This document shows positions 18,404 to 60,687 of a DNA stretch of 64,000 nucleotides, piece by piece. Numbering within the stretch: position 1 is the stretch's first letter; each line of letters opens with the position of its first letter. The notes under the pieces are model-generated. The model was not told where the DNA came from, made no database searches, and saw only the letters and a list, made by a program, of their open reading frames with translations. Both the position numbers and the translations under genes were made by a program. This DNA is from Nitrospira sp. (GTDB taxonomy: Bacteria > Nitrospirota > Nitrospiria > Nitrospirales > Nitrospiraceae), in NCBI GenBank assembly GCA_024998595.1, contig JACOEK010000004.1, positions 1-64,000 on the forward strand. The letters run 5' to 3'.

Positions 18404-18818
18404 GTTCAACGGTGAGGTTCCCTTCTTGGAAGTTATGTCTGAGCCACGGGGGCTGACGAGCGGAAGGTAGCAGAGGCCGCAACCATGGAATGGGTCACTG
18501 CTGACGCAGCACAGGACGGCTGAGGCCGGCGACGATCGACTATTCGAAAAACGACAATTCGGACACTTCGATGCGAGCTGGGATGCGGATCGAACGCAGC
18601 GAGGGAAGGCGTGTGAGATGCTGTTTCACTTTAGCCCCTATCGAGGGGGAAAAGACAGACAAATATCCGCAACGCGCGTGGAAGTGAGCGTCGAAGAGCG
18701 TCTTGAGGCGCAGGATAAACACGAGGGGTGGCTGAGTAGTCGGCCAACAGCCAGGCGCACGGGGCGACCGGCAGGCCTCACTGGAAGAGAGGCCCGAAAT
18801 GAATCTGCAGGTGAACGG
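18404..18818. other. Intergenic region between aroG and ndvB
   Basis: 415 bases upstream of the glucan synthase on the minus strand. Short frames exist, for example a 60-codon minus-strand frame at 18540-18722, but none has a ribosome site or recognisable product. The ndvB promoter is expected here; I could not identify a definite -35/-10 pair. Confidence 0.35.
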
Positions 18819-34136: not shown

Positions 34137-34148
34137 GGCCGGGTCTCC

Positions 34149-38739: not shown

Positions 38740-40464
38740 CTACGAATTTCCCTCTTCTCTCTTCTCCGCCACATCGAACTGTAGTCCGCTTGAGCCTTCG
38801 CCGCGGTCTGGACCTTTGCGTCGGCCGATCCAGAGATGGGTTGAGCCGTCGATCCAGCGGGCATATTGGTAGGTCCTGGTGACGCGGGCTCCCTCGCGTG
38901 GCACTTCTTCCTCGTAGAGCAACAGGTCGCGGTTCGGTTCGAGCAATCGCCCTTTCGGGAGTTGTACGCCTTGGATGCCGCCCTCGCCGAACTCGGGCAG
39001 CGCTCCTCGCTTGAGCCGCAAGGTCGCGCCGTCCTTGACCGGAAGCAATGGAATCCAATAGTCGGGCACCGTGGTGCCGAGCCGATAGACCAGTGGCGCG
39101 CCGTCCCCGTCAGCGGTAGGTGCCGGCGGCTGCGCCGCCATCGTTTCTTGATAGGCTTCGTGGCGATCCAACGGGCGGCCGGCGGCGCTTTCGACGACCC
39201 GCTCCACGGCCCAGGCCACGTTGGCCATTTCGTCTCTCAGTAACGACAGATCTTCTACCGGCTGGCTTTCCAACATCGGTCCCAACACCGGCGGCAGGAA
39301 CAGCAGCCGCTGGCTGTCGTTGGTGAGGCTGAACATGCGCCAGGGCGACGCGGGCCCGTCCACCTCGTTCGCGTGAGGAATCAGGAACCGTTCGCCGAAC
39401 GTATTCGTGACGACCAGTGCCCGGATCTGCGAGAGCGTGCCGACGGACAGGTCGAGCGGCAGTAAAAACCAATCATTGCTGTATTCCAGGACGAACTTCA
39501 CCAGCAACAGGCGGGCCAGGTCCTGTGGCGCCGCTTCCACGCTGGCAAAATTCACGGCGCCGTCTTCGAATTCCCAGAAGCGCGCAGAGGGCATGCCTCG
39601 AAACGAAACCGGCGCGGGAAGAAAGGCCTCCGTAAGAGATGTGCGGCTGTCGGTCGCTCCCAGGCCGTTCCCCGAGCTTGTTGTGAAGGAAAACCAATCC
39701 AACCGGCCATCGAGATATTCCGGAGCGGTCAGCACCACTTCGCCTGCTGCAGACTTGCCGGAAATGCTCAGGGCGTATTCCATCCGTTCGGGAATCCAGG
39801 CGGACGGGGCAGCACCTTGTTGGAACAGGCTGTCGAGCCAGGTCAACCAGTTCGTCACAATGCCGGTCACTCCGGCGCGATCGCTCTCCACCACCTGATC
39901 GAATGGCGCCTCGCGAAACAAGTCCGCCATGCTGTTGCTTGCCTGCAGTGCGCGCAGCCGCGCAGCGAGTCGAAGCCCGTCGATGGTCCGGCCGGTCAGC
40001 ACGCGGATGAAGGAGAGGCTTCCGGCGTCCATCTGCTTGGCTTGTTGGACCGTGGGCGCAGCCAGGACATACGTACTTCCCAACCACTGTGTGCGAGTGG
40101 GGCCGAGCCTGGCCGCTTCCAGCAACCGGAACAAATGCCGACCGGATTCGGCAGCCAGCCTCCAGTTGGGGCGCGAGTCGTCCGTCACGGGCTCCGCTTC
40201 GACCAGCGTTTCCAGCGCTAGAGTGTCAGTTGAGTAGGGCCTGGGCGGATGCGGGCCTGAGCGTGGCCCAGGTTGATAGCGGGTCACGGCGGCTTGGTCC
40301 ACGATCACCTGCGCGGCGGCGGGCGATCCGGCATCCGCGCCGTTGAACTCGCCGAACTGCCATTGCCGTCCCAGCATCCACAGCGGGTCGTGGATGCGCG
40401 CCTGCAACCCGTCTTGCAGGTCCGGGTTGTGGGTGCTGAGGTCGAGTCTGATCCGGGATGCCAT
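38740..40464 (-). CDS. 574-residue cluster protein, unknown function
   Basis: Last gene of the eight-gene cluster. It starts MASRIRLDLSTHNPDLQDGLQ and then has the conspicuous DPLWMLGRQWQFGEFNGADAG segment (about residues 27-47). Later come FWEFEDGAVNFASVEAAPQD, FVLEYSNDWFLLPLDLSVGTL and TNTFGERFLIPH. There is no signal peptide or membrane helix. I recall uncharacterised proteins with D-P-L-W-x-L-x-R-Q-W-Q motifs in other bacteria, without a function. The start is the ATG two bases after the stop of the 1772-residue gene; the frame is open further upstream but would overlap that gene extensively. Confidence 0.75.
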   Translation of the reverse strand: MASRIRLDLSTHNPDLQDGLQARIHDPLWMLGRQWQFGEFNGADAGSPAAAQVIVDQAAVTRYQPGPRSGPHPPRPYSTDTLALETLVEAEPVTDDSRPNWRLAAESGRHLFRLLEAARLGPTRTQWLGSTYVLAAPTVQQAKQMDAGSLSFIRVLTGRTIDGLRLAARLRALQASNSMADLFREAPFDQVVESDRAGVTGIVTNWLTWLDSLFQQGAAPSAWIPERMEYALSISGKSAAGEVVLTAPEYLDGRLDWFSFTTSSGNGLGATDSRTSLTEAFLPAPVSFRGMPSARFWEFEDGAVNFASVEAAPQDLARLLLVKFVLEYSNDWFLLPLDLSVGTLSQIRALVVTNTFGERFLIPHANEVDGPASPWRMFSLTNDSQRLLFLPPVLGPMLESQPVEDLSLLRDEMANVAWAVERVVESAAGRPLDRHEAYQETMAAQPPAPTADGDGAPLVYRLGTTVPDYWIPLLPVKDGATLRLKRGALPEFGEGGIQGVQLPKGRLLEPNRDLLLYEEEVPREGARVTRTYQYARWIDGSTHLWIGRRKGPDRGEGSSGLQFDVAEKREEGNS

Positions 40465-40466
40465 GC

Positions 40467-43400
40467 CTATGCTCCTATCGCTGGATCGATGACGCCGGTG
40501 AAATCGACGGTGCCACCGGTAAACAGCAGCGCCGGCGCCACTATGTCCGTTTCTCCGGAACTGACCGGCTGCAAGGCGCGCTTGCCGGCGCGATCCCACG
40601 TGGCCGTGCCGTCGAACAGAGTGAACGCCATGCCGTCCACGATCCGTCCTTCGACTCCCACGGTGGCGGCAGGCACTTCGAGCCGCACCCAGCGGCCGGG
40701 CGGCGGCAATGGACCCATGTATTGGCGGCTGACCGTATTGTCGGTGCCCCATGGAACGAGGTTTTCGCCCCAATAGGCACGATGCTCCCAACTGCCGTCA
40801 TGCCACTGCAACATCACTTGTCGCGGCATGCGCGCAGCATCGAGATAGATGTGCGCGAAAAGCCGGTCCCCCACGCTGACGAACAGCGCGGCCTTGGCGC
40901 CCCGGAAAAAATGTTGGTGCATACCGGCCGCGAGCACTGATTGATGGGCGCGTGTGCCGGACAGCGGTTCCGGCTTCATACGAATCCACGTCCAGGTCTC
41001 GTTGTCGCCGAAGGGGCTCGCGCCTTCCGGCAGTTGGTCTTCCACCCAGATCATTTCGTCGCCGCTCTCGGGTGCAACGGCACGGAGCCGGGCCAAATCC
41101 ATCGTCTCGTGCAAGACAGCTTCCAGACTGTTGAGGTCCCAGGTTGTCCGCCGGTCCGACGGCACCGCGAGCAGGAGCGCCTGTGGCGGCGCGCTGTTGG
41201 GCTGATCGTAATGAAAGGTCACGCCCGTCGTTTCGCGGGGACTCGGCACCGTTTCCACCCATTCGTCAATCAGGAGGCCGGCGAAGGGTTGATCGAAGCG
41301 GAGCGGTTGCGCCGACGACACATGGGCCACGAGCGAGATGCGTCCTCGTGGAAGAGGTTTGTCCGGCGCCGGTGGCAAGGCCACCCAGCGATCCTGTGGC
41401 TGATAGGGGAGTTGTCCGACGTGGAACCGGAGTGCGGCGCTGCCCACGGTTTCAGCATAGAGCATGGCCTCGTTCAGGCGTGTCGCACCAGGCCGTACAT
41501 AGGCGGCCCGTTGGAACCAGGTCACGGCGGCCAGCGGGTCCTGCCCCTGGAGTGAGAGGCTAGCAGCGAACGATTCATTCAATTGTGCCGCGTTGGCCGC
41601 AGTCACGCGCGGCAGGGCTAGGAAGTCCTGGTCGAAGACGATGCGGAAGCGACCGAGGTCGTGATCGCGTCGTTCTTCCGGCGTGGCGCTCGCACGCACG
41701 AAGCCCTGGTCGGATTCGGTGACGCGATCAAGGCGACGTTGCGCCTCGAGCAGCACCGATCGCGCCTGGGTCAGGAGCACCGATCGCGCTTCCGCTTCCG
41801 TACCGCCGATGTCCATCGGGACTGCGCCCGGCATGCCGAAGTCAGCCAGGCCGAGCAGGGCGCGGCGAACTTCGTCGGGGTTGGATGTCAGGTCGTCTGA
41901 AGACGGAGACGGCAGCAAGGCTTTCAGGGTTTGCTGTGCGGCGGTCAACGCTTGCAACGCGCGGGTCGCGCGGCCGGCGAACTCCTCCTGGTCCAGTCCG
42001 GAGTCGGCAGGCGATTCGGGCAGCGACAGATCGCGCCCATCGAGTGGGTGGGCGTTGCTAAGCAGCCTTCGCACCGTGGTCGCCACCTCGCACCATTCCG
42101 TCACGCTCACGATGTCCGCGCTCCAGTTGTTGTCACGGTCAAACTGCAATCGAATGATTGCCTCAGGCGGCACAGTCGCGGGTCGAGCCTGTTGCAGCAC
42201 GAAACGCCACCGTTGCTCCAATTCGGCCTGCTGTGCACGAGTGTTGCCTTCGGCGAGGTACACGGCATCGATCGGTGAGAGCCCGAGTGAAGTCAGCGCA
42301 CTTTCGACCGTCTGATAGACCTGTCCGTTTTCAGAATTCACGTAGTCCGCCTTGCAGCGGACTTGGGCCGGATTGGGTAACAGTGTCGCAAGCCAGGCGT
42401 TCAGGACCGGTTCAGCTTGCGCGCGTGCCGACGGGATGGTCGTGGGCCAGCCGCTGGGCGTCGTGCCGCTGGATACGGGGAACAGGGTGCAGAGGCGGTG
42501 CGTGAGCCCGATGCCGGTTCTCGGCGTGCGGATCACCTCCAACTCCGGGGGCGGGACTTCACCTGCTGCGATGGCATCCAGCGTTGCGCCGGAGCGGAGC
42601 GGATTGCCTTGAACGAGCTGATACACGCTCTCGGCCACGACGCTGTCGCCAACCGAGTCGACCAGATCGTCGAGCGCCTTGAGCGTCTCTACTAGCGCGG
42701 TAAAGTCGGGGCTTCCGGGTGGAGGAAATCCCAGGGTCGCGTTGCCGAACGGAATGGTCGTCACATCCCAAGGAGATTGCGGGGCCTGACGTTGTTGGCT
42801 CGCGGTCCACCGACGATGCAGCGCCAACCCGTCTACGACGGCGGCAGCCGGTAACGATTTCAGCGCCTCGTTCCATTGCGCGGCGAGGCGTGAGGTGAGG
42901 GCCGCTCTTGCGGCATTGAGATCGGCCATGGCCTTGCCGCGTTGCCCGCCTTCCTTGGCCAGCGCCTGGCGGTCGAGGTCAGCGGCGAGTGTGTCCTGTC
43001 GTACGGCCATCTGTTGCGCGGCGGGAATGGAATCCGGGTCGGCGGCGTTGAGCAATTTGGCCTGAGCCCGTTCCGCGAGCAGGCGTGTGCCTTCCTGTGC
43101 GCTGACGGTCTGTTGTGCGGCGGCGGCCTGGGCCACGGCGGTGGCTTGAGCCTGTGTCAGCTGTTCCACGCGGTTGTCCCAGTCGTCCAGGTCCCGCGCT
43201 TCCAACAACTGGACGGCATAACGCCGCACGGATGGCTGCGTCACCTTGCCCTGCGGTTTCGCGGCCTGTTGTTGCGCCAGCACCTGGCCCGCCTGCGTCA
43301 CCTGTATCTGCGCCGCCTGCGCCTGCTGCACGAGCGTGGCGATTGTTCCCAGTGCGGCGCGATAGGTTTGCTCGCGGCCTTCTCGTTCTGCCTTCAAGCC

Positions 43401-45785
43401 GCGGGCGTCTTCCGCCCGGCGCAAGGCCTGGTCGCGTTGCGTCGTCAGCAGCGTGACCTCCTGCGCCAGCCGTTCGGCGCGCGTGAGGGTGTCCCGGATG
43501 TCGGCGAAGCGATCGGTGCCGGTGAAGCTCGTGAGCGCGCGGAAGCGTTGGATATAGCGGTCCAAGCCACGTTCGTGGAGACGGCGTTCGAATCGGTACC
43601 CGAGCAGCGCGCTCAACGACTGACCTTGGCGCACGCCGTCGAGTAGCCACTTGGCGCGATGGACCCGTTCGGACGAAAGATCAACCGCAAAGGGCGAGGC
43701 ACCGGCTGCGCGATTGGACTCTTGTGAAAGGTAGCCGCTCCGCAGCACGGCCGCCGCCGCCGCATGTCCCAGCGAAGGGGCATGGACGAAGCCCTTGTTC
43801 TGTTCCGAGCGTGAGACCGGCGCGGTGACACCGGCCGGTAGTGTGGAGACCGGTTGCAGCGGGGCCGCACGCCGGACCTGTTCGACCCAGCCGTAGGCGC
43901 CGAGTCTGATGCCGGTGGGCGCCGCCTGCCGCATGACGGCCAGCCGCCTGGTGGCGAGAGATGTGCCCCATGCATCGAGACGATAGGTGAGCACATCCAT
44001 TGCCTCCGCGAGCAGTTGCTGTCGCACCGGTTCGGACAGGCTGGTCAGCTCATCCCAGGCCGGATCATGGGCGGTTGAAAGGACGCGGGTCAGTAGCAGC
44101 GTTCGAAAGGCATCGGTGAGCAACCGTTTCGGCACGGGCGGTTGTTGAGTAGAAATTTCCGGAAACTCCCGCAACGTATACCGGCCGGCGTTCCCCTCCT
44201 GCGCCAGGAGCACGACGGGGTTGGATTCCAGCGTGGTCTGGAGGGCCTGAGGAACCTGGCGGCGACGTGTCAGCCGTTGGGCTTTCCACCAGGTGGCCAG
44301 TGCCTTGTCCTGGTCCTGATCGGTCGTTGAGATCCAGCGATCGAGTGCCGCCACCGGCAGCAGGCCGTAGGGCTGGTTGTCGATACGTAGAGCCGGGAGT
44401 GGCCCGCGCGCCCGGACGTATTTCATGACATGGTCGCGCAGCACGTCCGCTCCGGCTGCGCCGAGTAATTGACGCAACAACGGACTGTCGCACAGCGCGA
44501 GCAGCGCCGCATGCATGAGCGAGGCGTACCGTTGTTCCGCGCCGTCGGCTCCGCGGACATGGGCAAAGACGGAGGCCGGCAGGCCCAAGGCCTGTCCCAG
44601 GAGATCGCCATCGGACCCTGATTGGATTAACGAGGCGCCTAACTCGACGCCCATGCTGTCGGCGGCGTTGCGCTCGGTCGATCGATAGCCGGCGGAGGCT
44701 TCCGCCGTGTTGTTCGTCGCCACCTGTTGTTTCACGAGGGCAAGGCCGCCGGTGTAATGGTGCGCGTCGAGCAGTTGTGCCAATCGGCCGGCCGTGGTTG
44801 AGGCGTCCCACGAGGCCTTCACCCCCAGCACCACAATCCGATCGAATCCTGCCTGCGCGTCTTCCTCCGTGATGGGAATACGTAGCCCCATGCCGATGGA
44901 TTCAGCCACGTCAAAATCCGTGATCCACTTCATGCCCTCATCGACGGGCGGCAAGCCATTGCCGCCGAGCGGGCCTGTGCTCCGTGGGTCGGGCCCGACC
45001 GCCACAGTCTCAGAGATGGTATTGCCCCAGGCGGTGATGCGTGCCGCATCGCCGCGATAACCGATGGCGACCCAGCGATCAGGGAGGACCTGCGTATGGG
45101 GCGCGCGCATCCAACTGTCTTCACGGCGAGTCACCGTTCCAGCTTGAGAGGGATCGAGCGCACGGGCGATCCAGGCAGCACGGGTAGTGCCGAACTGCTC
45201 CGTGAGTCGTTGCCAGCCCTGCCTGATATGTTCCTGCCGGTCAGCGCCTGCGGGGGTGGCGGCGACATGGGCCCAAAACTCCTTCCCGCGGCGGTCTTCC
45301 TCATCCGTCAGTGCCGGTTCGTGGCTGTCGAGATGGATGTCGTCGGGATAGACGCGGAGCAGGAGGTCGGTGCCCGGTCCCGTGCGTCTCGCCGTAAACC
45401 TGGTTTCCAGGCGGACGGGGAACAGCAGCAGCGGATGCGTGGTCGCAACCGTACCAGTGAAGCGATCCGTGCCCAGGAGGCGGGCCGTGGCGGCATCGCG
45501 GGCGTTTCGATATTCATCGACCTGCGCCGATAGCGCCGCGACTTCGGCTTTCTTGCGAGTCACCACATCCTGCGTGGCGGTAATTTGGGTGTTCACCTGA
45601 CCCAATTCGGCCTGGTAGAGCGCCCGTTGCCGGATGAGCATGGACGCTCGCCGTTGTGCGGCTTGAGCTCGCGCGACGGCCCGGTCATGTGCCGCCTGCA
45701 ATTGTCGCAACTTGGTCGCCCAGGCTCGAAGCACTGCCGGGGGCACCCGTTCAGGAACGTCTGATCCTTCGTCGATCGGTCTCAC
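40467..45785 (-). CDS. 1772-residue cluster protein with coiled coils and C-terminal beta-sandwich-like domain
   Basis: The largest cluster protein, starting at a GTG with AAGGA upstream. Residues about 20-100 are a coiled coil (Gln/Ala/Arg heptads). The conserved-looking HPLLLFPVRLETRF and LLLRVYPDDIHLDSHEP follow (about 115-155). A second, Ala/Gln-rich coiled coil lies around 760-930. Residues about 1625-1745 contain PRQVMLQWHDGSWEHRAYWGE, VPWGTDN, GRWVRLEVPA and GMAFTLFDGTATWDRAG. These resemble lectin-like beta-sandwich domains that I recall from large planctomycete proteins. No signal peptide or membrane helix is seen. Function unknown; size and coiled coils suggest a structural or scaffold role. 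Confidence 0.78.
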   Translation of the reverse strand: MRPIDEGSDVPERVPPAVLRAWATKLRQLQAAHDRAVARAQAAQRRASMLIRQRALYQAELGQVNTQITATQDVVTRKKAEVAALSAQVDEYRNARDAATARLLGTDRFTGTVATTHPLLLFPVRLETRFTARRTGPGTDLLLRVYPDDIHLDSHEPALTDEEDRRGKEFWAHVAATPAGADRQEHIRQGWQRLTEQFGTTRAAWIARALDPSQAGTVTRREDSWMRAPHTQVLPDRWVAIGYRGDAARITAWGNTISETVAVGPDPRSTGPLGGNGLPPVDEGMKWITDFDVAESIGMGLRIPITEEDAQAGFDRIVVLGVKASWDASTTAGRLAQLLDAHHYTGGLALVKQQVATNNTAEASAGYRSTERNAADSMGVELGASLIQSGSDGDLLGQALGLPASVFAHVRGADGAEQRYASLMHAALLALCDSPLLRQLLGAAGADVLRDHVMKYVRARGPLPALRIDNQPYGLLPVAALDRWISTTDQDQDKALATWWKAQRLTRRRQVPQALQTTLESNPVVLLAQEGNAGRYTLREFPEISTQQPPVPKRLLTDAFRTLLLTRVLSTAHDPAWDELTSLSEPVRQQLLAEAMDVLTYRLDAWGTSLATRRLAVMRQAAPTGIRLGAYGWVEQVRRAAPLQPVSTLPAGVTAPVSRSEQNKGFVHAPSLGHAAAAAVLRSGYLSQESNRAAGASPFAVDLSSERVHRAKWLLDGVRQGQSLSALLGYRFERRLHERGLDRYIQRFRALTSFTGTDRFADIRDTLTRAERLAQEVTLLTTQRDQALRRAEDARGLKAEREGREQTYRAALGTIATLVQQAQAAQIQVTQAGQVLAQQQAAKPQGKVTQPSVRRYAVQLLEARDLDDWDNRVEQLTQAQATAVAQAAAAQQTVSAQEGTRLLAERAQAKLLNAADPDSIPAAQQMAVRQDTLAADLDRQALAKEGGQRGKAMADLNAARAALTSRLAAQWNEALKSLPAAAVVDGLALHRRWTASQQRQAPQSPWDVTTIPFGNATLGFPPPGSPDFTALVETLKALDDLVDSVGDSVVAESVYQLVQGNPLRSGATLDAIAAGEVPPPELEVIRTPRTGIGLTHRLCTLFPVSSGTTPSGWPTTIPSARAQAEPVLNAWLATLLPNPAQVRCKADYVNSENGQVYQTVESALTSLGLSPIDAVYLAEGNTRAQQAELEQRWRFVLQQARPATVPPEAIIRLQFDRDNNWSADIVSVTEWCEVATTVRRLLSNAHPLDGRDLSLPESPADSGLDQEEFAGRATRALQALTAAQQTLKALLPSPSSDDLTSNPDEVRRALLGLADFGMPGAVPMDIGGTEAEARSVLLTQARSVLLEAQRRLDRVTESDQGFVRASATPEERRDHDLGRFRIVFDQDFLALPRVTAANAAQLNESFAASLSLQGQDPLAAVTWFQRAAYVRPGATRLNEAMLYAETVGSAALRFHVGQLPYQPQDRWVALPPAPDKPLPRGRISLVAHVSSAQPLRFDQPFAGLLIDEWVETVPSPRETTGVTFHYDQPNSAPPQALLLAVPSDRRTTWDLNSLEAVLHETMDLARLRAVAPESGDEMIWVEDQLPEGASPFGDNETWTWIRMKPEPLSGTRAHQSVLAAGMHQHFFRGAKAALFVSVGDRLFAHIYLDAARMPRQVMLQWHDGSWEHRAYWGENLVPWGTDNTVSRQYMGPLPPPGRWVRLEVPAATVGVEGRIVDGMAFTLFDGTATWDRAGKRALQPVSSGETDIVAPALLFTGGTVDFTGVIDPAIGA

Positions 45786-45805
45786 TCCGTTGATCCTTTC
45801 ATGAC

Positions 45806-46615
45806 TTAGGGGCCGTCCTGTAACAGTGTCGTGACTTCGGCTTCGGCTGCGGCCAACGCTTGTTCAGCTGCCGCCGCTTGTGCCTCCGCTTCGGGGATTT
45901 GCGTGGCCAGGCCGGCAAGGAGCGTCGTTAGTTCGCTGCGGCGGTTGAGCAAGCCTGCGAGCAGCGTCTCGGCATCTTCCAATTCGAATCGTGTCACCTG
46001 AAGGGATTCTTCCAACGTTGCCGTGCGGGCCGACAGTTGCGCCGCCACCTGTTGCAGCGCTGCCCTGACCAGCGGGTCTCGCGTGATTTCTGCGTTCATA
46101 CCCTCGATCTCGGTGAGGCTCGCTTGCAGTTGTTGCCGGCGGGGCTGAAGGGCGGCGATCGCGGCTTGGGTGGCTTGCACCGCGGCTGCCGCCGCCGCAA
46201 TCTGAACGTCCACCGCTCGTACTTGTGCCTGAGCCTGCGCCACGCCCTGCTGTGCCTCGGTCACCTTCGCATGAGCCGCGGTTGCTGCGGTCTGGGCCTG
46301 GGTGACTGTTCTTCGCAGCGCGGCAAGGCGCAACCGCCAGCTTGCCGGGGGGATGCCGGGGGGCGGCTCGGATGCATCGAGAAGCTCCTGTTGCGCCTCT
46401 GCGACTTTGGCATCGGCGGCGGTTGCTGCTGCCTGCAACGGCGGAATGCGCGCCTGGGCTTGCGCCACGCCGCTCTGTGCATTGGTGCGCTGAGCTTGCG
46501 CCGCCGTCACTGCCTGCTGCTGGCTTGTGAGTTGCGTCGTCAACGCGGTCTGTTGCGCGGCTAAAGCTTGCAGGGCCGTCTGGAGTCGTGCGGTTTCTTG
46601 TTCCAAAAAGGGCAT
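45806..46615 (-). CDS. Coiled-coil cluster protein, 269 residues
   Basis: Begins MPFLEQETARLQTALQALAAQQ and consists almost wholly of Ala/Gln/Leu heptad-like helices in two blocks (about 1-80 and 97-265). A Pro break separates them (SEPPPGIPPASWR). The end is EQALAAAEAEVTTLLQDGP. The ATG at 46615 is preceded by GGAAAGAG; a longer frame to 46732 would overlap the upstream gene. There is no signal peptide. Its helices resemble the coiled-coil parts of the adjacent 1772-residue protein, so the two may interact directly, which is inference. Confidence 0.75.
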   Translation of the reverse strand: MPFLEQETARLQTALQALAAQQTALTTQLTSQQQAVTAAQAQRTNAQSGVAQAQARIPPLQAAATAADAKVAEAQQELLDASEPPPGIPPASWRLRLAALRRTVTQAQTAATAAHAKVTEAQQGVAQAQAQVRAVDVQIAAAAAAVQATQAAIAALQPRRQQLQASLTEIEGMNAEITRDPLVRAALQQVAAQLSARTATLEESLQVTRFELEDAETLLAGLLNRRSELTTLLAGLATQIPEAEAQAAAAEQALAAAEAEVTTLLQDGP

Positions 46616-46638
46616 GGTCTGGTCTCTTTCCGTTGCTC

Positions 46639-49251: not shown

Positions 49252-49271
49252 GGTGCTTCATTCCTGTTGTG

Positions 49272-52553: not shown

Positions 52554-55027
52554 GTGCGGTCCATGGTCCGTGCTTCGATGGGGACGGTGAACGTATTTGT
52601 CAGGAGCATGGAAACGACCGATCGATAGCGCTCAAGGCTCCCGCGAAGCCTGGGACTGCCGCACTGGGCCAGTAGGTCCAAGCAGCGATTGAGATATCGA
52701 TACGCCGATTCTTTGTCGATTGGCAAGGGGCTGTCATCGACCGACGTTCCGTGGAGCAGTCTCCGGAGCAGGCGAGGTCCTGCCGCACGGTGCCACATGG
52801 TGGCAATGCGCCGGTTGCTGTTGATCAAGCGACGGGCTTCGCTGAAATGCCGACTGATCGCGGCTGCCACATGATCGCCTTCCGGAAAATGCTTCAACCT
52901 GTCTTTGAGGATTTGAAGCCAGGTGGTGAATGGCGACGATGCCGCATCTGCCTCGCTCCGGTGATCGCGCATGAAGTGCGGTCTCTTCTCCTCGTGAAGC
53001 GGGCTGAAGTCCGAGGCCCTGCGCCCAGTGGAGAAGTGCTCATCGAGGACGGCAGGCGGGTGCATGTGTGGTCCGCCGCCTCCACCGCCCCCGCCGCCTC
53101 CGGCGGCCGCACGCACGGCATCGATGGCGGCTTGAATGTTGAGTTTTCCACCGCCCCATGTTGCATCCCATCCGCCGGCCGGTCTTTCCCGCGCCGTTGC
53201 CTGCAGGTGAGTGACGAGCTCGGCTCTCGTCAGTCGGGGATTTTCCTCCAAGAGCAGCGCGATTGCCCCGGCTACGTGCGGAGCGGCCATGCTGGTGCCG
53301 GTCAAGTCCTCGTAAAGGCAGCAGCAGGCATCCGGGCAGCAATCGCAACAGCGCCCGCGCAGATTGGCAGCATCCGCCTTGGCGGACGTGATTTCCAACC
53401 CGGGCGCCGCGATGTCCGGCTTGCGGTTGGTCGCGGCGCCTCTCGCGACGGGGCCGCGGCTGGACGACGAGACGATTCCGGTCGAAGGCCAGCAATCACA
53501 ACGACTCGTGCGTGAGGCATGGTTGGCGACCGTGATGACTTGAGACGCGGTGCCGGGAATGCTGAGCGTGGCGTCGAGGCTCGCCCGAATCTTGCCGTCG
53601 TCGGGAGTTTTGGGCGGAAGAAACCAGGGCGTGTTGGAGCCGCGCTCGATCCAGCAGTGAAAATCGACGGCCCCCGCATTGGGATTTGTGAGGGTGAGTT
53701 TCCAGGTGCCATCGAGGATGGCGCCACGACGAGGACGTTCCACAGTAATCCGAAAGTTATTGTTGCGATCATGTTCGCCGTTGATGGTCCCATCCACCGC
53801 GACGTGGGTTTGCCGGTTGGCGGGAGCTGCGGGATTGGCAATAAACGGCGGGGCGGCGGCATTGGCCGGAAGGTCGGTGCCATGGTTCACGGCACCGCTG
53901 ACGGCACCGCCGGGCGCAGTGACGGTTAAGTTGAGCGTGCCGGCCCGGTCGTACCAGAGGTCGAGCAGCGCGTCGGACCTGCGTTCTTTCGGAACCTCGA
54001 ATTCAATGTCCAGATGGTCATTGCCCGGCACACGACCCTGCACGTGCCGCAGCATGCCGCCTTCGTTGCCGGCCGACTTGACGACGATTTGCGGATGGTG
54101 CAGAAAGTCGCCGGTTTCGACGTGGGCGTCGATCGCCAGCTCGACGCCGCTTGTGCCGTCATGAGGTCCCAGGTTGTCGCCTTGGCTGATGTTGATGACC
54201 TTCGGCTTATCAATGCTGCCGAGAAACCCGAAGATGAAGTCGATGGCTTCGATGAGGCGTTGGTTTTCCCCGATCTCCTCGTCGTTGGTGTAGTCGTAAC
54301 GCACGACAATGAGTTCGGCTTCCGGGGCGACGCCTACATAGGTTTGGCTGACGTGGCAGCAGGTCGGAGGCCTGCCGTTACCCGCCGCGATGCCTGCCAC
54401 ATGGGTGCCGTGGCCTTCCCGGTTATTGCTGGCATCGACATCCTTGGTGCGCACCGTGGCCCGGCCCTGGAGGGCTTGGGTGAGTTGGTCTTGGTTATAG
54501 ACGACGCCGACATTGTTGGGTCCCCTCGTGTCGCCGGCTCTGAAGGGCAACATGTGATCCCAGATCGCCAGAATCCTCGACTTCCCATTCTCATCGACGA
54601 ACGAGCCGTGTCGCCAATCGATCCCGCTATCGATGATCCCGACCACGACGCCCTTTCCCTTGCGTGAGTGAGGGCCTGTGTGTACCGCGGTCGCTCGAAT
54701 TTCTTGCAGGCTGAAGTTGAGCTCACGATGCATGCGGCGCGGTCCTTCCACGGTCGTGACATGGGGAATCGCGGCGAGATCGTCGAGTCGGTCGATGGCG
54801 ATGGTGCCGGTGGCGATGCTGTAGCCCTTGCGGGGATGACGAACCAGCGTGCGCTGCACGAAGCCGATGGCGGTCAGATCCTCCACCTTACCGGTGAACC
54901 CGACGATGACGCCCACCTGCGCGCTTTTCACGCGCGCACGCGATTTTGGAGCGGTCGCGGCTGCGTGATCGGTGGTCTGTCTGGTACGGATTTTCGAACG
55001 TAGTCCGGGATCAAGTTTTTTATTCAT
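52550..55027 (-). CDS. Subtilisin-like (S8) serine protease with Cys-rich insertion
   Basis: An 825-residue protease. It has a basic N-terminus without a signal peptide and an inhibitor-like prodomain region (about 38-95). The catalytic domain has Asp133 (GIIDSGID), His206 (EGHGTHVAG), oxyanion Asn321 (KSAGNEGG) and Ser579 (GTSMAAPHVAG), so the triad is complete. A beta-rich insertion lies at about 330-470. Seven Cys in eleven residues (560-570, CCDCCPDACCC) lie just before the Ser motif, with further pairs at PTCCHV and CDCW. After a run of ten Gly comes a helical C-terminal domain (about 680-825). GAGG precedes the ATG. It lies between two DUF6603-type genes, so maturation of cluster proteins is a reasonable guess. 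Confidence 0.9.
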   Translation of the reverse strand: MNKKLDPGLRSKIRTRQTTDHAAATAPKSRARVKSAQVGVIVGFTGKVEDLTAIGFVQRTLVRHPRKGYSIATGTIAIDRLDDLAAIPHVTTVEGPRRMHRELNFSLQEIRATAVHTGPHSRKGKGVVVGIIDSGIDWRHGSFVDENGKSRILAIWDHMLPFRAGDTRGPNNVGVVYNQDQLTQALQGRATVRTKDVDASNNREGHGTHVAGIAAGNGRPPTCCHVSQTYVGVAPEAELIVVRYDYTNDEEIGENQRLIEAIDFIFGFLGSIDKPKVINISQGDNLGPHDGTSGVELAIDAHVETGDFLHHPQIVVKSAGNEGGMLRHVQGRVPGNDHLDIEFEVPKERRSDALLDLWYDRAGTLNLTVTAPGGAVSGAVNHGTDLPANAAAPPFIANPAAPANRQTHVAVDGTINGEHDRNNNFRITVERPRRGAILDGTWKLTLTNPNAGAVDFHCWIERGSNTPWFLPPKTPDDGKIRASLDATLSIPGTASQVITVANHASRTSRCDCWPSTGIVSSSSRGPVARGAATNRKPDIAAPGLEITSAKADAANLRGRCCDCCPDACCCLYEDLTGTSMAAPHVAGAIALLLEENPRLTRAELVTHLQATARERPAGGWDATWGGGKLNIQAAIDAVRAAAGGGGGGGGGGPHMHPPAVLDEHFSTGRRASDFSPLHEEKRPHFMRDHRSEADAASSPFTTWLQILKDRLKHFPEGDHVAAAISRHFSEARRLINSNRRIATMWHRAAGPRLLRRLLHGTSVDDSPLPIDKESAYRYLNRCLDLLAQCGSPRLRGSLERYRSVVSMLLTNTFTVPIEARTMDRT

Positions 55028-55036
55028 GAAACATCC

Positions 55037-58000
55037 TCATTGCCGTCCAACCAGCACGGCTGTATTCATTCGTCGGCGTTTGCGGGACGGCGCCTGGCCG
55101 GCGGCGCCGAAGGGCGCGACCCGGGTCAGCACCGACGCCGAGAGCACGTAGCCCGGCTTCGGCCGCTCCGGCGGCCGCGTCGGATCCAGCAGCAACGTCT
55201 CATAGGCGATCGGCGCGGCGAGTCCCCCCTCGTCATCCACGGCTAAGTCGTCAGCGGCGACCGTGAGGCCGCCGGCGAGCGGGACAAAACTCGGCTGCGC
55301 CAACTGCTGGTCGTCGCGCAGATCTTCATACTGCGCCAAGGCGAAGGGCTCCTGCACCGGCGTGGTCCGCCAGGGCTGGGCGCCGGCGCGATCCGTCACC
55401 GTGACCGTCACCGTCGTGGGTCCGCCAACGAGCGGCGCGGTCCCCAGCTTTGTGAGCCGCCGGTTCAAGGGCGCAATCCGCTCGCGTAGCGTCAGTTCCG
55501 CCCAGGGATGCACGCGCAGTCCGTTGGCCGGCGGCGGCATCTCTCTGATGGTCACCACCGCGCTCGTGCTCCGTGGCAGGGCGCCACTCCAATTGCGCCG
55601 GTCGGCCAGGGCGGCGGCAATCAAGCCCACCACATCCACCGCCGCGGGCAGCGGCGGGGCGCTCTTGCTCCCGAACGTCCGCGAGAAGGACACCGACACC
55701 GAGAAGAACAAAAACTTGATCGACGCCTTACCCTCCACGTGCCAGGGCGTCGGCCCGGCCAGCCGTCCCTTAAACGAGATGCCCATCAACAGGCGGCCGT
55801 GATAGCGCAGCGCCAACGCCGCGCCGACCTCCACCTCAAAGGCCAAGGGCGCCAATTGAATGATCGCATCAAAACCGAGCAGGCCATCGAAGCTGAAGCC
55901 GCCGCCGGCCGCATGGAGATCCACCCGCGCCCCGAACTGCACCGTATTGGAGGTGACGGCGACATAGGCCTGGCAGCGTAACTGGAGCGAATCCCCGTCA
56001 GCTAATTGCAAGGCCAGCCGCTTCAACGCGGGGAGGCCCGGCGGTGCGGCAAAGCGGGGGTGGAACCCCCCGATGGCCAGCACGAACTGCGGTTGACGGC
56101 CCCAGCCCGCGCGTAACGCCATGTCGCCGGTCAGGGTGAATTGCAGAATGCGCGAATCATAGAGCGTCGCATCCAACGAGACCGTCTCGGCGCTGACATC
56201 CAGGACGCCCAAGGCATCCATGCGGATCTGGATCAGCGGATGGGCCTGATCCGGGAGGAGCACTTGCAAACGGCCCAGCACGACCACGCGAATGGGCGCA
56301 GGCAGTTCGACGAGCAGGGCCAGGTCGAGCGTCAGCAAGGTCGGGGAGCCCCAGCGCAGTTGCACCATCGGCCCCACTACATGGCGGCCGGCGGTGGGTG
56401 GGAACACTCGCCGCAGGTCACTAAAGATCTGGGGGGCATTGCGGAGGGGATCGGGTGGAAACAAGATGGAGTTCAAGGTGCCGGTCTTAAGCCCGTCGCG
56501 CAGGACATCCGTACGGACGGTGCGATGCAGGGCGACCAACCCCCCGATGCCGGTGAGGGTGAAGCCTAAGCCGATCGGAATCGGCGCGAAGCCTTCGGCG
56601 GTCAAGATGATAATGAGCGAGTAGCCCTTGCTACCGTCAGGCATCCTGGTGGTGAGCAGGCCCAGCGCCTTGAGGGCGATCGTCTCGGCCAGTTCCAACT
56701 GCAGCATCCCGCTGTATTCAGCGCGCTGGGGATCGAAGCCGAGGAACCCGCCGCCGGTCACGCCGGGCGTCGTAATGGCCAGGCCGAGGCCCGTCGGCGG
56801 TTGGAAGCCCAGGGCCAGATCGGCCACCCCGAGGTTGCCGCCTGATTCGGGAAACCCAAGTTGTGCGGAGATGCCGATGCCTTCAATCTGAATCGAGATG
56901 GGGCCAATCCTCAGACCGGGATCGAACGTCGCCCTTGCGGTAATTCCCTGGCCTTCCGTCACAATACGTAGCCGAAGCGCACCCAACGTGACGGGGCCGA
57001 TCGACCGATTAAGCGGCCACCTCGCTTCCAGGCCCGCATGCCCGCCGAAATGCATGCCGGTTGCACTGGACCAGCCGATGGTGAAATCAAGATCGGTGGA
57101 AAGACCTTGAGCAGGAAGTACGCCGGATAGGAAGTTGTCGCCGTCGGAACCGGCGATGGCCAGATGTGCCTGTTTAACGACTAGTTCAAGCGAGGCATCA
57201 CGAGCCGTCGTGCCGAGCTGAAGTTCTCCGGTGATCCGCAGCGTGCCGAAACTGAAACCCGTTCCGCTCGCGCCGCCGACTGTGGACGGCGGGGTCTGCA
57301 TCACTGTTTCCGGTTCGGCGGTGAGCGACAGGTGCCAGGCCTCGCCGCCGGATGTCTCGATATGGTCGGGTCCCACGAGCACTCCGCGAATCGAGCCGCT
57401 GGTTGTGGCCTGCAGACGCCAATCGTTGACGCGTCCTTGAAAGCTGATCGTACCGAACGGACGTACGAGGAGTCCTCGTCTCCCCCGGTCCGCAGAGGAA
57501 AGGGCGAGCGTCATGCCATACAAGTCTCCGTCATGCGGAGACACATACATCGACAGCATATGCGCCAGTCGGTCGATGGCTACTGCTCCGCCCGTGACCG
57601 GCACGCCCGGGTTAAAGCCATAGCGCGCGCTGATGCCGAGAAACTGACAGAGGCGAGCGAGTCGCGGAAAGAGTTTGTCGGCCGCTCGATGGGCGCCGCT
57701 GACTGTGGCGAGCGCATCGTCGCTGAAGTATTCCTGCTCCAACGCTGTTACAGGATCACGAAGCAATGGTCCGATGCGATCGAAACGCAATTCGCCCCGG
57801 CGATGCTCCTCCCGGATCAGTTTTACGCCGTCACGAATGGCCGGAAGGAGAGGCCCGTCGGCCGGTGCGACCACCAGCCCGAGCAACTCGGCGATCACGA
57901 AGCTGGTCGGCGACAGTTGGAACCAATGGGCGATAACCAGGGCTTCGAGGAGCGCTTTGGCAAAATCGTCGAGGTGGGCGGAATCGGCATGGCCGAGTAG

Positions 58001-58291
58001 ACGGCCAAGATTGTGAATGGCTTCAAACGTTCGACGGGCCTGTTCCAAGGCGGCGACAAATGCCGAGAGCGTCTCTGGTGGATCGGCCACATGATGCGTG
58101 ATGGCTTCGATGCCCTCGGAGATTGTCCGGAGGTTGGCCGCTGCCGCCGCGGCATCGAACCCCACCACCTCGTCCAAATCCCAGCCGACTGACGAGGCGA
58201 GATTGCGTAGATACTCCTCGTGTTCCCCGGCGAGTCGGAGGGGCGTGAGGATCACGATGAGGCGATCGAGTATGGAAGAAGTCTTGGCCAT
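55037..58291 (-). CDS. DUF6603-type giant protein, copy B
   Basis: A 1084-residue protein starting MAKTSSILDRLIVILTPLRL. Its helical N-terminal region (to about 240) differs from copy A. A beta-rich middle (about 255-480, RPFGTISFQGRVNDWRLQATT, GLEARWPLNRSIGPVTLGALRLRI) is only distantly alike. The last 590 residues are nearly identical to copy A. The C-terminus ends AVLVGRQ. The ATG at 58291 lies two bases after the PhoD-like gene stop; the frame extends to 58429 but would overlap that gene. There is no signal peptide. Function unknown to me; family assignment as for copy A. Confidence 0.78.
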   Translation of the reverse strand: MAKTSSILDRLIVILTPLRLAGEHEEYLRNLASSVGWDLDEVVGFDAAAAAANLRTISEGIEAITHHVADPPETLSAFVAALEQARRTFEAIHNLGRLLGHADSAHLDDFAKALLEALVIAHWFQLSPTSFVIAELLGLVVAPADGPLLPAIRDGVKLIREEHRRGELRFDRIGPLLRDPVTALEQEYFSDDALATVSGAHRAADKLFPRLARLCQFLGISARYGFNPGVPVTGGAVAIDRLAHMLSMYVSPHDGDLYGMTLALSSADRGRRGLLVRPFGTISFQGRVNDWRLQATTSGSIRGVLVGPDHIETSGGEAWHLSLTAEPETVMQTPPSTVGGASGTGFSFGTLRITGELQLGTTARDASLELVVKQAHLAIAGSDGDNFLSGVLPAQGLSTDLDFTIGWSSATGMHFGGHAGLEARWPLNRSIGPVTLGALRLRIVTEGQGITARATFDPGLRIGPISIQIEGIGISAQLGFPESGGNLGVADLALGFQPPTGLGLAITTPGVTGGGFLGFDPQRAEYSGMLQLELAETIALKALGLLTTRMPDGSKGYSLIIILTAEGFAPIPIGLGFTLTGIGGLVALHRTVRTDVLRDGLKTGTLNSILFPPDPLRNAPQIFSDLRRVFPPTAGRHVVGPMVQLRWGSPTLLTLDLALLVELPAPIRVVVLGRLQVLLPDQAHPLIQIRMDALGVLDVSAETVSLDATLYDSRILQFTLTGDMALRAGWGRQPQFVLAIGGFHPRFAAPPGLPALKRLALQLADGDSLQLRCQAYVAVTSNTVQFGARVDLHAAGGGFSFDGLLGFDAIIQLAPLAFEVEVGAALALRYHGRLLMGISFKGRLAGPTPWHVEGKASIKFLFFSVSVSFSRTFGSKSAPPLPAAVDVVGLIAAALADRRNWSGALPRSTSAVVTIREMPPPANGLRVHPWAELTLRERIAPLNRRLTKLGTAPLVGGPTTVTVTVTDRAGAQPWRTTPVQEPFALAQYEDLRDDQQLAQPSFVPLAGGLTVAADDLAVDDEGGLAAPIAYETLLLDPTRPPERPKPGYVLSASVLTRVAPFGAAGQAPSRKRRRMNTAVLVGRQ
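55071..56842. repeat. 1772-bp direct repeat, copy B
   Basis: Second member of the repeat pair (see 49294-51065), in the same orientation, 4 kb away from copy A. The copies together enclose the whole protease gene and the 5' half of copy A. Homology ends at 56842, where copy B continues CTGATTCGGG and copy A GCCGGATGGA. Confidence 0.92.
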
Positions 58292-58293
58292 GA

Positions 58294-60687
58294 TTATGTT
58301 GGGAGCGCCGGTGGTGTGGCCGGCGGTTCCATCGATACGACGAATCGGGTGACTGTCCAAGCGGGATTGACCGTGGGGCGGCCTCGCCACCACACGTTCT
58401 GGACGACGGCTTTGTTGCCAGCCGCCCATTTGAAGGTCACGTCCCCGATGTTGTTGGCCTTGATCACGTGAGATTTCTCCACGGTCCAGAGTGTCTCGGG
58501 TGAGACTAGCGCCATCTCATCAAGCACGTCATTCAATGTCGGGCTGGGACGGTCCGGTATGACGACCGGGGCATGGTCGGCCGTGCGATCAGAAGGTACT
58601 GGTTCGAGCGAATAGCGCCACTCGGGGGCCGGGTTCATTTTTGGTTCATGCGCGCCGGGCTGGTATTCCATCATCCAGGGGCTTTGTTTAAAGCGCCAGG
58701 GCGAGGTGTTGGGTTCGGAGATCCACGTGAGCGTCGGTTTGTCCTTCCATCCGGCCCAGTGCCGGACACGCTCGTCCTTCAATGGTACGACGGTCGGATT
58801 GACCCACTTGCAGGGACTGCTGACCAGTTGCGCCACAACGCCTTCGACGGGATCTGCCGCCACGCTGAACGGGGTGCGACTCCAGTACTGCATACGCATG
58901 CAGAAACTGCGATGGACATCACCCGACAGAATGACGACACGGGTCTGGCGCTTCCCGCCGACGATATGAGGCGCACGGTGCAGCGCATGCGCCATCAGCT
59001 GTTCAAAGCCTGTGGTTTGCGGTTCGTACTTGGCTCCATGTTCCGGACCGTAGTCCTGCAAACGAAGGAAGGAGAACAGGGATGGGATCTGCAGTTGAAA
59101 CAGGGTCAACAGTTTGATTGCCAGGCGCAGGAGTTGAAACAGGAGAAAAATAGGGTGCAACCATAGAATGAGGCGAGTCACGCCGGAGTGCCACTCGCTG
59201 GCGACCAGTTCGCCTGTACTGATCCCGGGCAGTTCGATCGCGACATTCGACACGACGATCAGGGAGCATTCGGTTTCGGGGTAGGCTGCCTGGTCTATCT
59301 GCTCGCGAAGACCCCCTTCGGAGAGAATGCTGGCGTTCCTGTATTTGTCCGGGTAGGACCGCCACATGTAGGTGTCGAGCACGACGATGCTGAGACCGGG
59401 GCATGGGACGGTGTAATCCCACCGGATGACGTCGGGACCGTGAAAGCGGGCCCAATCACGCCCGGTCTTGAACTCATCCTCGCCGGGCAGACCCAGATGC
59501 TTCATGAGGCGAGCGAGGGGGGCAGGAGGAGACACGGTTCCCGCCCGTTCGGCTTGCGACCAGTCGGTGACGGCTGTGAGGAACCCCTGTCCCGGCCCGG
59601 TCTCGTATCGCTCCGGCGTGTTGCCCCATCCCTGGCAGAGCGCATAGGCGGCTAACGCATCCTGATAGACGCGTCGCCCCATCGGTTTGGCCAAGACCGA
59701 TTCCACCCAGTCGGCTGTGATGTTCCAACTGTTCGAGAGCTCATGATCGTCGAAGATCATGTAGGTCGCGACGTTGGCGAATGCGCGGCGCACGGCCGGG
59801 AGCGTCCCCCGGAAGTCGAAGGCTTTCCGTTGATAGTCGAGATCGCCGGGCCACAGATTGTCGGCGAATGCGAGAAGGTGAAGGACCAAGGATTCTCCCA
59901 TGCCGAAAAGATGTCGAAGCGAAGGCCAGGGGCCGGTATTGCTGAGCCCCGCGTCATCGAGCGCATATTCCCATCGGACGCCCGACATTGAGCCGACCTT
60001 CTTGTCGACGCCAGGCATGGTTTCATCCCAGCCGAGCAGCGTGGGGGCCGCATCGAGGATGACTTCAAAACAGGCCTGTTCACATCCGTCGTTGTAAATG
60101 TTGTCCCCGGTGAGGAAGAGCATATGGGGGCGGCGGCCGTTGGGTCGGAATGACTCTTGAAGAATGTGGTCGGCCGCTGCAAGGGCATCGCTGTGGTCCC
60201 CCGCGATCTTGCGGCAGGAGCCGTGGAGCAACCGCAGATCATCGAGTGAGGCGGGAGGCAATAGGAAACTTGGTCGCGAAGGGCCGCCGTCGCTCGCGTA
60301 GGTCAACTTAGTCCTGGCTTCGTCGGATGTGGCCGCGATGATGCGTGGGGCAAACAGGTCGCCGCCGCTCGGGATGTCGTCACTCCCGCCGCTGTGATCG
60401 AATGTGAGATTGTATTGGTAAGCTTTTCCCGCCGTGAACGGGGTAGCAGGTTTGGCGGTAATGCAGGCGATGTGAAGATTGGTACCGACTGGTAAGGTTT
60501 CGCGCTCGCCGCTGGCCACAACAGCGCCGCCGGGGGCATCTCCATCGTAGATGTCCAGTTTGATGCGCCGTCCCCGCCGCAAGGCCACCCATACGGTGGC
60601 GCTGGTCGGCTCAACCCGTCGAACGATTGGCCCCGCCAATACCAATGGAAGCCCGTTCAACCGGTCTTTGAGCTGAGTGAAGCTCAT
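58294..60687 (-). CDS. PhoD-like metallophosphatase
   Basis: A 797-residue protein of the PhoD/calcineurin-like fold. It has an N-terminal Fn3-like region (GPIVRRVEPTSATVWVALR) and metal-site motifs HGSCRK (about 155), LTGDNIYND (about 193), IFDDHELSNSW (about 313) and VVILSGDVHRSF (about 585). These suit a phosphomonoesterase or phosphodiesterase. Residues about 500-545 are an unusual hydrophobic insertion (ILWLHPIFLLFQLLRLAIKL) that may hold it to a membrane. There is no Tat or Sec signal, unlike secreted PhoD. GGGGAG nine bases before ATG 60687 fixes the start over the frame to 60708. First gene of the cluster; substrate unknown. Confidence 0.85.
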   Translation of the reverse strand: MSFTQLKDRLNGLPLVLAGPIVRRVEPTSATVWVALRRGRRIKLDIYDGDAPGGAVVASGERETLPVGTNLHIACITAKPATPFTAGKAYQYNLTFDHSGGSDDIPSGGDLFAPRIIAATSDEARTKLTYASDGGPSRPSFLLPPASLDDLRLLHGSCRKIAGDHSDALAAADHILQESFRPNGRRPHMLFLTGDNIYNDGCEQACFEVILDAAPTLLGWDETMPGVDKKVGSMSGVRWEYALDDAGLSNTGPWPSLRHLFGMGESLVLHLLAFADNLWPGDLDYQRKAFDFRGTLPAVRRAFANVATYMIFDDHELSNSWNITADWVESVLAKPMGRRVYQDALAAYALCQGWGNTPERYETGPGQGFLTAVTDWSQAERAGTVSPPAPLARLMKHLGLPGEDEFKTGRDWARFHGPDVIRWDYTVPCPGLSIVVLDTYMWRSYPDKYRNASILSEGGLREQIDQAAYPETECSLIVVSNVAIELPGISTGELVASEWHSGVTRLILWLHPIFLLFQLLRLAIKLLTLFQLQIPSLFSFLRLQDYGPEHGAKYEPQTTGFEQLMAHALHRAPHIVGGKRQTRVVILSGDVHRSFCMRMQYWSRTPFSVAADPVEGVVAQLVSSPCKWVNPTVVPLKDERVRHWAGWKDKPTLTWISEPNTSPWRFKQSPWMMEYQPGAHEPKMNPAPEWRYSLEPVPSDRTADHAPVVIPDRPSPTLNDVLDEMALVSPETLWTVEKSHVIKANNIGDVTFKWAAGNKAVVQNVWWRGRPTVNPAWTVTRFVVSMEPPATPPALPT

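Follow-up and report, generated by a model that had tools for sequence, protein, structure and literature searches.

The DNA analysed here, referred to as the window, comprises 64,000 nt of a Nitrospira sp. genome of 4.23 Mb and carries an operon of eight co-directional open reading frames (ORFs) on its minus strand (38740-60687). In order, the operon encodes a PhoD-like phosphatase, a DUF6603 protein (DUF6603-a), a subtilisin-like protease (subtilase), a second DUF6603 protein (DUF6603-b), an 870-residue protein, a coiled-coil protein, a 1772-residue protein and a 574-residue protein; the three large proteins without a family name are designated 870, 1772 and 574. An even chance is given to the reading that this operon encodes a modular enzyme-carrier complex with exchangeable enzyme-adaptor modules, and at the gene level the architecture of a carrier with exchangeable modules is well supported by comparison of sequences. 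A dedicated, undescribed system had been proposed in an initial annotation of the window; comparative genomics agrees with this proposal, the large families co-occurring as a cluster. The gene system apparently has no prior description, and no literature on DUF6603 (PF20248) or on the system was found in a search that did not include preprints and most subscription journals.

Conservation of the gene cluster

The 574 protein family was searched in 84,980 species genomes, which yielded 489 relatives. The 80 best of these, from which the taxonomic spread was read, include members of Nitrospirota, Acidobacteriota, Actinomycetota, Bacteroidota, Cyanobacteria, Bacillota (Neobacillus), Chloroflexi, Planctomycetota, Pseudomonadota and a haloarchaeal plasmid. 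All 59 loci whose upstream flank is 9 kb or longer show the gene order 870-1772-574, and DUF6603 lies ahead of these three genes in 44 of them; in most of the others the visible flank ends before this position. In two loci (L107, L113) the DUF6603 module is located downstream of 870-1772-574. Homologues scattered without shared neighbours, which the initial annotation had named as the outcome that would speak against a common system, were thus not what the neighbourhood analysis across genomes returned. The coiled-coil gene is carried by Nitrospira loci only and its product is therefore regarded as accessory, not as a pillar of the assembly.

Co-occurrence within the Nitrospirota was analysed in an even sample of 296 genomes using the Fisher test. 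DUF6603 was present in 30 genomes and 574 in 29, with both present in 28 (p = 9e-36). The operon occurs in about 20 Nitrospira genomes, and the named Nitrospira loci are 70-87% identical to the window locus. Divergent versions of the operon (about 30-45% identity) exist in the same family and order, some of them as a second copy within one genome. Plasmid-borne copies were found in Streptomyces, haloarchaea and Rhizobium, and the family is present in hosts without an outer membrane (Streptomyces, Neobacillus, haloarchaea). All genes of the operon are under purifying selection, with ratios of non-synonymous to synonymous substitution rates (dN/dS) of about 0.09-0.17 between orthologues of Nitrospira species; the ratio is higher (0.27-0.32) when the compared DUF6603 copies carry different N-terminal halves (N-halves).

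Several individual loci deserve a separate record. In a Pyrinomonadaceae metagenome-assembled genome (MAG), a single ORF (L059:4656-11162) fuses 1772 and 574, which suggests that the two products touch. In the single-contig genome G009, a truncated DUF6603 match (C1:1381782) lies about 1 Mb from the remaining carrier genes (2358198-2366722), which could be due either to rearrangement via the repeated DUF6603 domain or to misassembly. Operon pieces on a contig of a 'Gemmatimonadetes' MAG (L052) and in a 'Nitrosospira' (L040) are 84-86% identical to Nitrospira and are likely mis-binned or mis-named. No relative of the system was detected on viral contigs. A phage origin via MT835531.1 (L173, 'Bacteriophage sp.') was considered and rejected; this unverified faecal scaffold carries 870, 1772 and 574 together with GC-rich, actinobacterial-looking genes and is probably a mislabelled bacterial contig.

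Exchange of the enzyme gene upstream of DUF6603

The genes upstream of DUF6603, a position referred to as the enzyme slot, were surveyed in 30 stretches of diverse genomes. A PhoD-like gene occupies the slot in 14 of the 30 stretches. Other occupants are S8 subtilases (Nitrospira, a planctomycete), M64 metallopeptidases (Nitrospira, Larkinella), an M23 peptidase (Mycobacterium), phospholipase D (PLD; several Nitrospiraceae), an N-acetylmuramoyl-L-alanine amidase (Amidase_2; the Nitrospiraceae genome G029), a peptidoglycan-binding protein (a Streptomyces plasmid), a beta-lactamase-like protein, DUF2515, DUF4056 and a homologous pair of proteins of 985 and 1021 aa of unknown type. Before DUF6603-a, most sampled Nitrospira species have PLD instead of PhoD (e.g. 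L031:1501-3759, with two HKD motifs), and PhoD is found in the window genome and in G007. Catalytic motifs are intact where they are readable, namely two HKD motifs in the PLDs, HExxHxxG in M64 and the S8 triad. DUF6603 directly follows the enzyme gene, and the two are often translationally coupled; in many cases the last few bases of the enzyme gene already belong to the start of DUF6603. Slot proteins without a Pfam match were found in L154 (G223; 476/465 aa), L160 (G018; 970 aa), L122 (985 aa), L125 (427 aa) and L144 (901 aa), and by their position these are candidates for new enzyme families.

Phosphatase and protease had initially been interpreted as processors or regulators of a large assembly. 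This role is not borne out, as each of them gives way elsewhere to other occupants, among them phospholipase D, M64, M23 and muramoyl-amidase, and the large proteins are kept; PhoD and S8 therefore look like an exchangeable payload or catalytic modules.

Co-inheritance of N-half and enzyme

The DUF6603 proteins consist of an N-half and the DUF6603 domain. Near-identical N-halves were collapsed to 41 representatives, 30 of which have a class-mate, and the enzyme labels were shuffled 100,000 times. The nearest neighbour of an N-half shares its enzyme class in 28 of 30 cases, compared with 8.3 expected and a maximum of 20 among the shuffles (p = 1e-5); the enzyme classes other than PhoD have 3-4 independent members each. 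When the DUF6603 domain of these proteins was tested in the same way, its similarity did not follow the enzyme class (10/30, p = 0.32). For the window proteins, the nearest neighbours of the DUF6603-a N-half are all PhoD-associated and those of the DUF6603-b N-half are all S8-associated.

The match was also seen out of sample. The ten best matches of an S8-linked DUF6603 protein of the actinobacterium Phycicoccus are S8-linked N-halves from Nitrospira and a planctomycete, and the best matches of known class for an M64-linked DUF6603 protein of a Chitinophagaceae member are M64-linked N-halves; its very best match comes from Nostoc, in a copy that lies at the end of a contig with the enzyme out of view. 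In Nitrospira, a switch between PhoD and PLD or between S8 and M64 is accompanied by a switch of the N-half, and the DUF6603 domain stays in place. Taken together, these comparisons show that an enzyme and its N-half are passed on, and also exchanged, together.

Homogenised DUF6603 domains and a probable route of module exchange

The two DUF6603 genes of the window share a block of 1.77 kb with 99.5% DNA identity, and their N-halves are unrelated, a point absent from the initial annotation. Within a single operon, the two DUF6603 domains are 97-100% identical at the DNA level over about 1.73 kb in each of six Nitrospira genomes, and the domains of different genomes among these six are only 77-89% identical. 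The N-halves of DUF6603-a and DUF6603-b could not be aligned at the DNA level; between genomes they are orthologous when the enzyme is the same. An assembly artefact was rejected as explanation for the near-identical blocks because they are seen in six genomes, three of which are single-contig chromosomes (G004, G007, G023).

Moreover, the single-contig genome G029 contains a second module of Amidase_2 and DUF6603, behind which lies a piece of the 870 gene coding for 105 aa. A direct repeat of 2558 bp with 99.6% identity, which covers the DUF6603 domain as well as the beginning of 870, joins both copies. The simplest reading of these patterns is that the DUF6603 domain serves as the site of gene conversion or unequal crossing-over, which would provide a route for the stacking and swapping of modules. 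Module exchange by gene conversion in which DNA identity stops at the domain border in several species would be unusual in itself.

Proposed organisation of the complex

In the proposed complex, the DUF6603 domain together with 870, 1772 and 574, whose order is constant across phyla according to comparative genomics, would form the carrier. The N-half may serve as docking adaptor for its own enzyme, and the DUF6603 domain would plug the enzyme-adaptor modules into the shared 870/1772/574 part. Homologous recombination within the DUF6603 domain would allow modules to be acquired, stacked and swapped; the window genome would load two of them, a PhoD-like module (a) and a subtilisin module (b).

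Less securely, the loaded complex may act on cell envelopes outside the producing cell. Envelope action is favoured because the cargo consists mostly of hydrolases of phospholipids, proteins and peptidoglycan and because surface-type domains are inserted in the carrier. PA14 and a sub-threshold F5/8-type C domain were found in the 574 protein of Caulobacter, LTD in a haloarchaeal 574 protein and FG-GAP in an actinobacterial 870 protein; these four domains are characteristic of binding to surfaces or glycans. The C-terminal domain of 1772 was additionally found as an insertion in 870 of Nodosilinea and in 574 of Caulobacter (loci L072, L075). A more far-reaching version, which is considered unlikely, sees a sheath-less and Sec-less protein-delivery machine that crosses phyla, with a four-protein carrier, a DUF6603 beta-barrel or groove that would deliver the hydrolase to a foreign membrane or across it, and an exchange of modules by recombination.

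Several observations weigh against the modular enzyme-carrier complex. The match of N-half and enzyme is proof of co-inheritance of the pair, not of binding, and nothing in the genes alone shows physical contact between the parts. Two of the 30 N-halves are discordant, one of them at a bit score of only 22. Some slot proteins (985, 970, 427 and 901 aa) belong to no known family, and the SCO1, HEAT and PKD neighbours in Filimonas are unlike envelope hydrolases. The structure models cover 574 and DUF6603-b only, with a predicted template modelling score (pTM) of 0.55 for the latter. No secretion, lysis or injection gene was found in the operon and no recognisable Sec signal in its proteins, and therefore the extracellular site is unproven. 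Unlike antibacterial effectors, the operon has no immunity-like gene between its modules, where gaps are 2-23 bases with one 4-base overlap. The lack of Sec signals, secretion apparatus and immunity genes argues against an antibacterial effector of the standard kind.

The system is spread over hundreds of species of bacteria and archaea and in each genome occupies about 15-22 kb of coding DNA. If the modular reading is true, DUF6603 would gain a role and a natural set of enzyme-adaptor pairs would become available, from which the partner hydrolase of a given adaptor could be predicted. The destination to which the carrier brings phospholipases, proteases and wall hydrolases that lack a secretion signal would then be directly testable.

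Alternative explanations

The likeliest alternative is an enzyme scaffold within the cell or at the inner face of the envelope, i.e. an assembly with a house-keeping or stress function that keeps hydrolases in position and is no weapon. The absence of Sec or convincing export signals from every part, the lack of an immunity-like gene, the strong purifying selection on all parts and the long retention in the Nitrospira genomes are in line with such a scaffold. It is nevertheless held to be rather unlikely, since an exchange of phospholipase, protease and peptidoglycan amidase is hard to fit to one house-keeping task and the PA14, F5/8C, LTD and FG-GAP insertions point to surfaces.

Alternatively, DUF6603 could be a pore or lipid groove that inserts in a membrane or carries lipids, with the N-terminal enzyme processing passing material and the rest acting as an assembly frame. 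The AlphaFold model of DUF6603-b, with a predicted local distance difference test (pLDDT) value of 77.6, consists of an N-terminal helical bundle and a C-terminal antiparallel meander of about 24 predicted strands. Alternation of hydrophobic and polar residues over all 32 strands of the model is strong (contrast 2.87, compared with 1.20±0.16 when shuffled). Porins, LptD, TonB-dependent receptors and VDAC rank highest in structural comparison (Z 11-14), at root-mean-square deviations (rmsd) of mostly 10-15 Å, and Foldseek returned LptD, FimD and ApoB with a best E of 2e-4 and template modelling (TM) scores below 0.2 by query. Owing to the low TM-scores and large rmsd, this likeness concerns the strand arrangement and not the function. 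Against viral structures, Foldseek gave weak tail- or fibre-like matches only. Together with the low pTM of the model, the absence of a signal peptide and the presence of the family in Gram-positive bacteria and in archaea, which have no outer membrane, make the pore or groove quite unlikely. Of the suggestion in the initial annotation that the structure is membrane-attached or storage-like, nothing supports storage, and membrane attachment is compatible with the predicted large amphipathic meander.

It is decidedly doubtful that the operon provides cargo for an extracellular contractile injection system (eCIS) encoded elsewhere in the same genome, in or on which the hydrolases would ride. In its favour, eCIS_core (PF13699) is present in 21 of 30 DUF6603-positive and in 18 of 266 DUF6603-negative Nitrospirota genomes (p = 7e-15), sheath and eCIS_core genes are located on the contig of the window at 320-347 kb, and in one genome, G004, a DUF4157/eCIS_core gene (L026:14517-15809) lies about 4 kb upstream of the operon. 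However, the association is confounded by phylogeny, the sampled DUF6603-positive genomes of the genus all having both. An eCIS is not required, because nine of the 30 DUF6603-positive Nitrospirota genomes have no eCIS_core. Furthermore, no sheath, tube, baseplate or eCIS_core gene lies within the operon, which is also found in haloarchaea and Gram-positives (the eCIS counts cover Nitrospirota only).

That the operon is an ordinary conserved cluster of unrelated proteins, in which N-half and enzyme match by vertical inheritance of neighbours, is highly improbable, for although neighbouring genes are usually co-inherited and the non-PhoD members are few, the DUF6603 domain of the same protein fails to track the enzyme, several N-half types within Nitrospira change exactly with the enzyme, and the S8 and M64 matches cross phyla.

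Gene content of the operon and its surroundings

The tight packing of the eight minus-strand genes seen at first is real. With starts corrected via relatives, the intergenic distances in gene order are 2, 9, -4, 20, 23, 20 and 2 bases, and the 574 gene start lies within a longer ORF of 683 aa (Table 1).

Table 1. Coordinates of the genes and repeated blocks of the operon in the window.
Feature	Position	Strand	Basis
Enzyme module a: PhoD-like metallophosphatase/phosphodiesterase, 797 aa	58294..60687	-	Pfam PhoD 26.7 bits; motifs; start as in G007 relative; ORF reaches 60708
DUF6603-a: PhoD-type N-half and DUF6603 domain	55037..58291	-	Pfam DUF6603 2.6e-131; ORF reaches 58429
Enzyme module b: S8 subtilisin-like protease, 825 aa, C-terminal extension	52550..55027	-	Pfam S8 8e-41
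DUF6603-b: S8-type N-half and DUF6603 domain, 1093 aa	49272..52553	-	Pfam 1.3e-130; AlphaFold pLDDT 77.6
Homogenised DUF6603-domain block, copy b	49294..51065	-	99.5% DNA identity with 55071-56842
Homogenised DUF6603-domain block, copy a	55071..56842	-	99.5% DNA identity with 49294-51065
Putative carrier protein, 870 aa, no family match	46639..49251	-	Adjoins 1772/574 across phyla
Coiled-coil protein, 269 aa, accessory	45806..46615	-	Seen in Nitrospira loci only; Pfam/NCBIfam matches are generic coiled coils
Putative carrier protein, 1772 aa; C-terminal domain of about 200 residues recurs elsewhere as insertion	40467..45785	-	Homologues beside 574 in 59/59 loci
Putative carrier protein, 574 aa, last gene	38740..40464	-	489 relatives; AlphaFold pLDDT 83.5, pTM 0.80

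Profile searches of each protein recognised PhoD, DUF6603 (twice) and S8, as had been expected. The DUF6603 proteins (436.8 and 439.1 bits; 27-bit Pfam cut-off) are clear members of PF20248. The PhoD-like protein (PF09423, E=4e-6) is just below its cut-off of 27 bits, and its homologue in G029 is above the cut-off with 37.8 bits; in the alignment the window protein keeps the family-invariant motifs GD-x-IY-x-D, DDH and GDxH. The subtilase has all catalytic motifs of Peptidase_S8 (D133, HGTH, GTSMA). For 870, 1772 and 574, profile searches gave no significant match in Pfam, NCBIfam, PHROGs or PDB. The PDB profile search with 574, 870, 1772, DUF6603, PhoD and the C-terminal domain of 1772 gave no relevant match, DUF6603 yielding coiled-coil type matches to its N-terminal helices only. 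No PDB structure matched the 574 model at E<=0.001 (Foldseek best E 0.13; VIA best Z 2.9), which does not prove a new fold. PADLOC returned a generic subtilase profile and a weak IetS match for the S8 protein as well as coiled-coil matches, and none for 870, 1772, 574 or DUF6603. The absence of Sec signals from all eight proteins was upheld by a simple hydrophobicity scan, which found no Sec-like N-terminus. Scans for sigma-70 promoters and against Rfam gave no match.

Elsewhere on the minus strand, the window encodes a 2900-aa protein (9707-18409) with GH94 catalytic and supersandwich, putative glucoamylase and GT2 domains, which looks like the cyclic beta-glucan synthase type, and an ordinary RND efflux pump of the AcrB type (1065 aa) with a HlyD-type adaptor (30939-35315).

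Comparison with known systems

DUF6603 is listed in Pfam with unknown function; two proteins of the operon are members at E of about 1e-130, and its pairing with an enzyme, an N-half specific to that enzyme and three partner proteins are absent from every description found. In strand arrangement, the long antiparallel amphipathic meander of the DUF6603 model resembles transmembrane beta-barrels such as LptD, Occ porins and VDAC. In contrast to these, DUF6603 has no sequence match in the PDB and no signal peptide or hydrophobic N-terminus, and it occurs in hosts without an outer membrane, so that the combination of signal peptide and outer-membrane host that marks an outer-membrane barrel was not found.

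With eCIS the operon shares the wide bacterial and archaeal spread, proteins without Sec signals and many of the same Nitrospira genomes, but the cluster lacks sheath, tube, spike, baseplate and AAA ATPase. None of the eight proteins matched a contractile-injection family in Pfam or PHROGs, and the sheath gene is about 260 kb away.

Polymorphic toxins and the effector-adaptor modules of type VI secretion systems (T6SS) are characterised by a constant carrier, an exchangeable catalytic part, a matched adaptor, recombination in conserved flanks and an extra module next to a recombination scar. The gene system works like them in these features, and the enzyme slot with its matched N-half corresponds to an exchangeable catalytic module on a constant carrier. 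It differs in that it lacks an immunity gene, a toxin tip carried by the carrier polypeptide itself and any component of T6SS, contact-dependent inhibition (CDI) or Rhs systems, and, unlike in those systems, adaptor and carrier domain form one protein in the operon.

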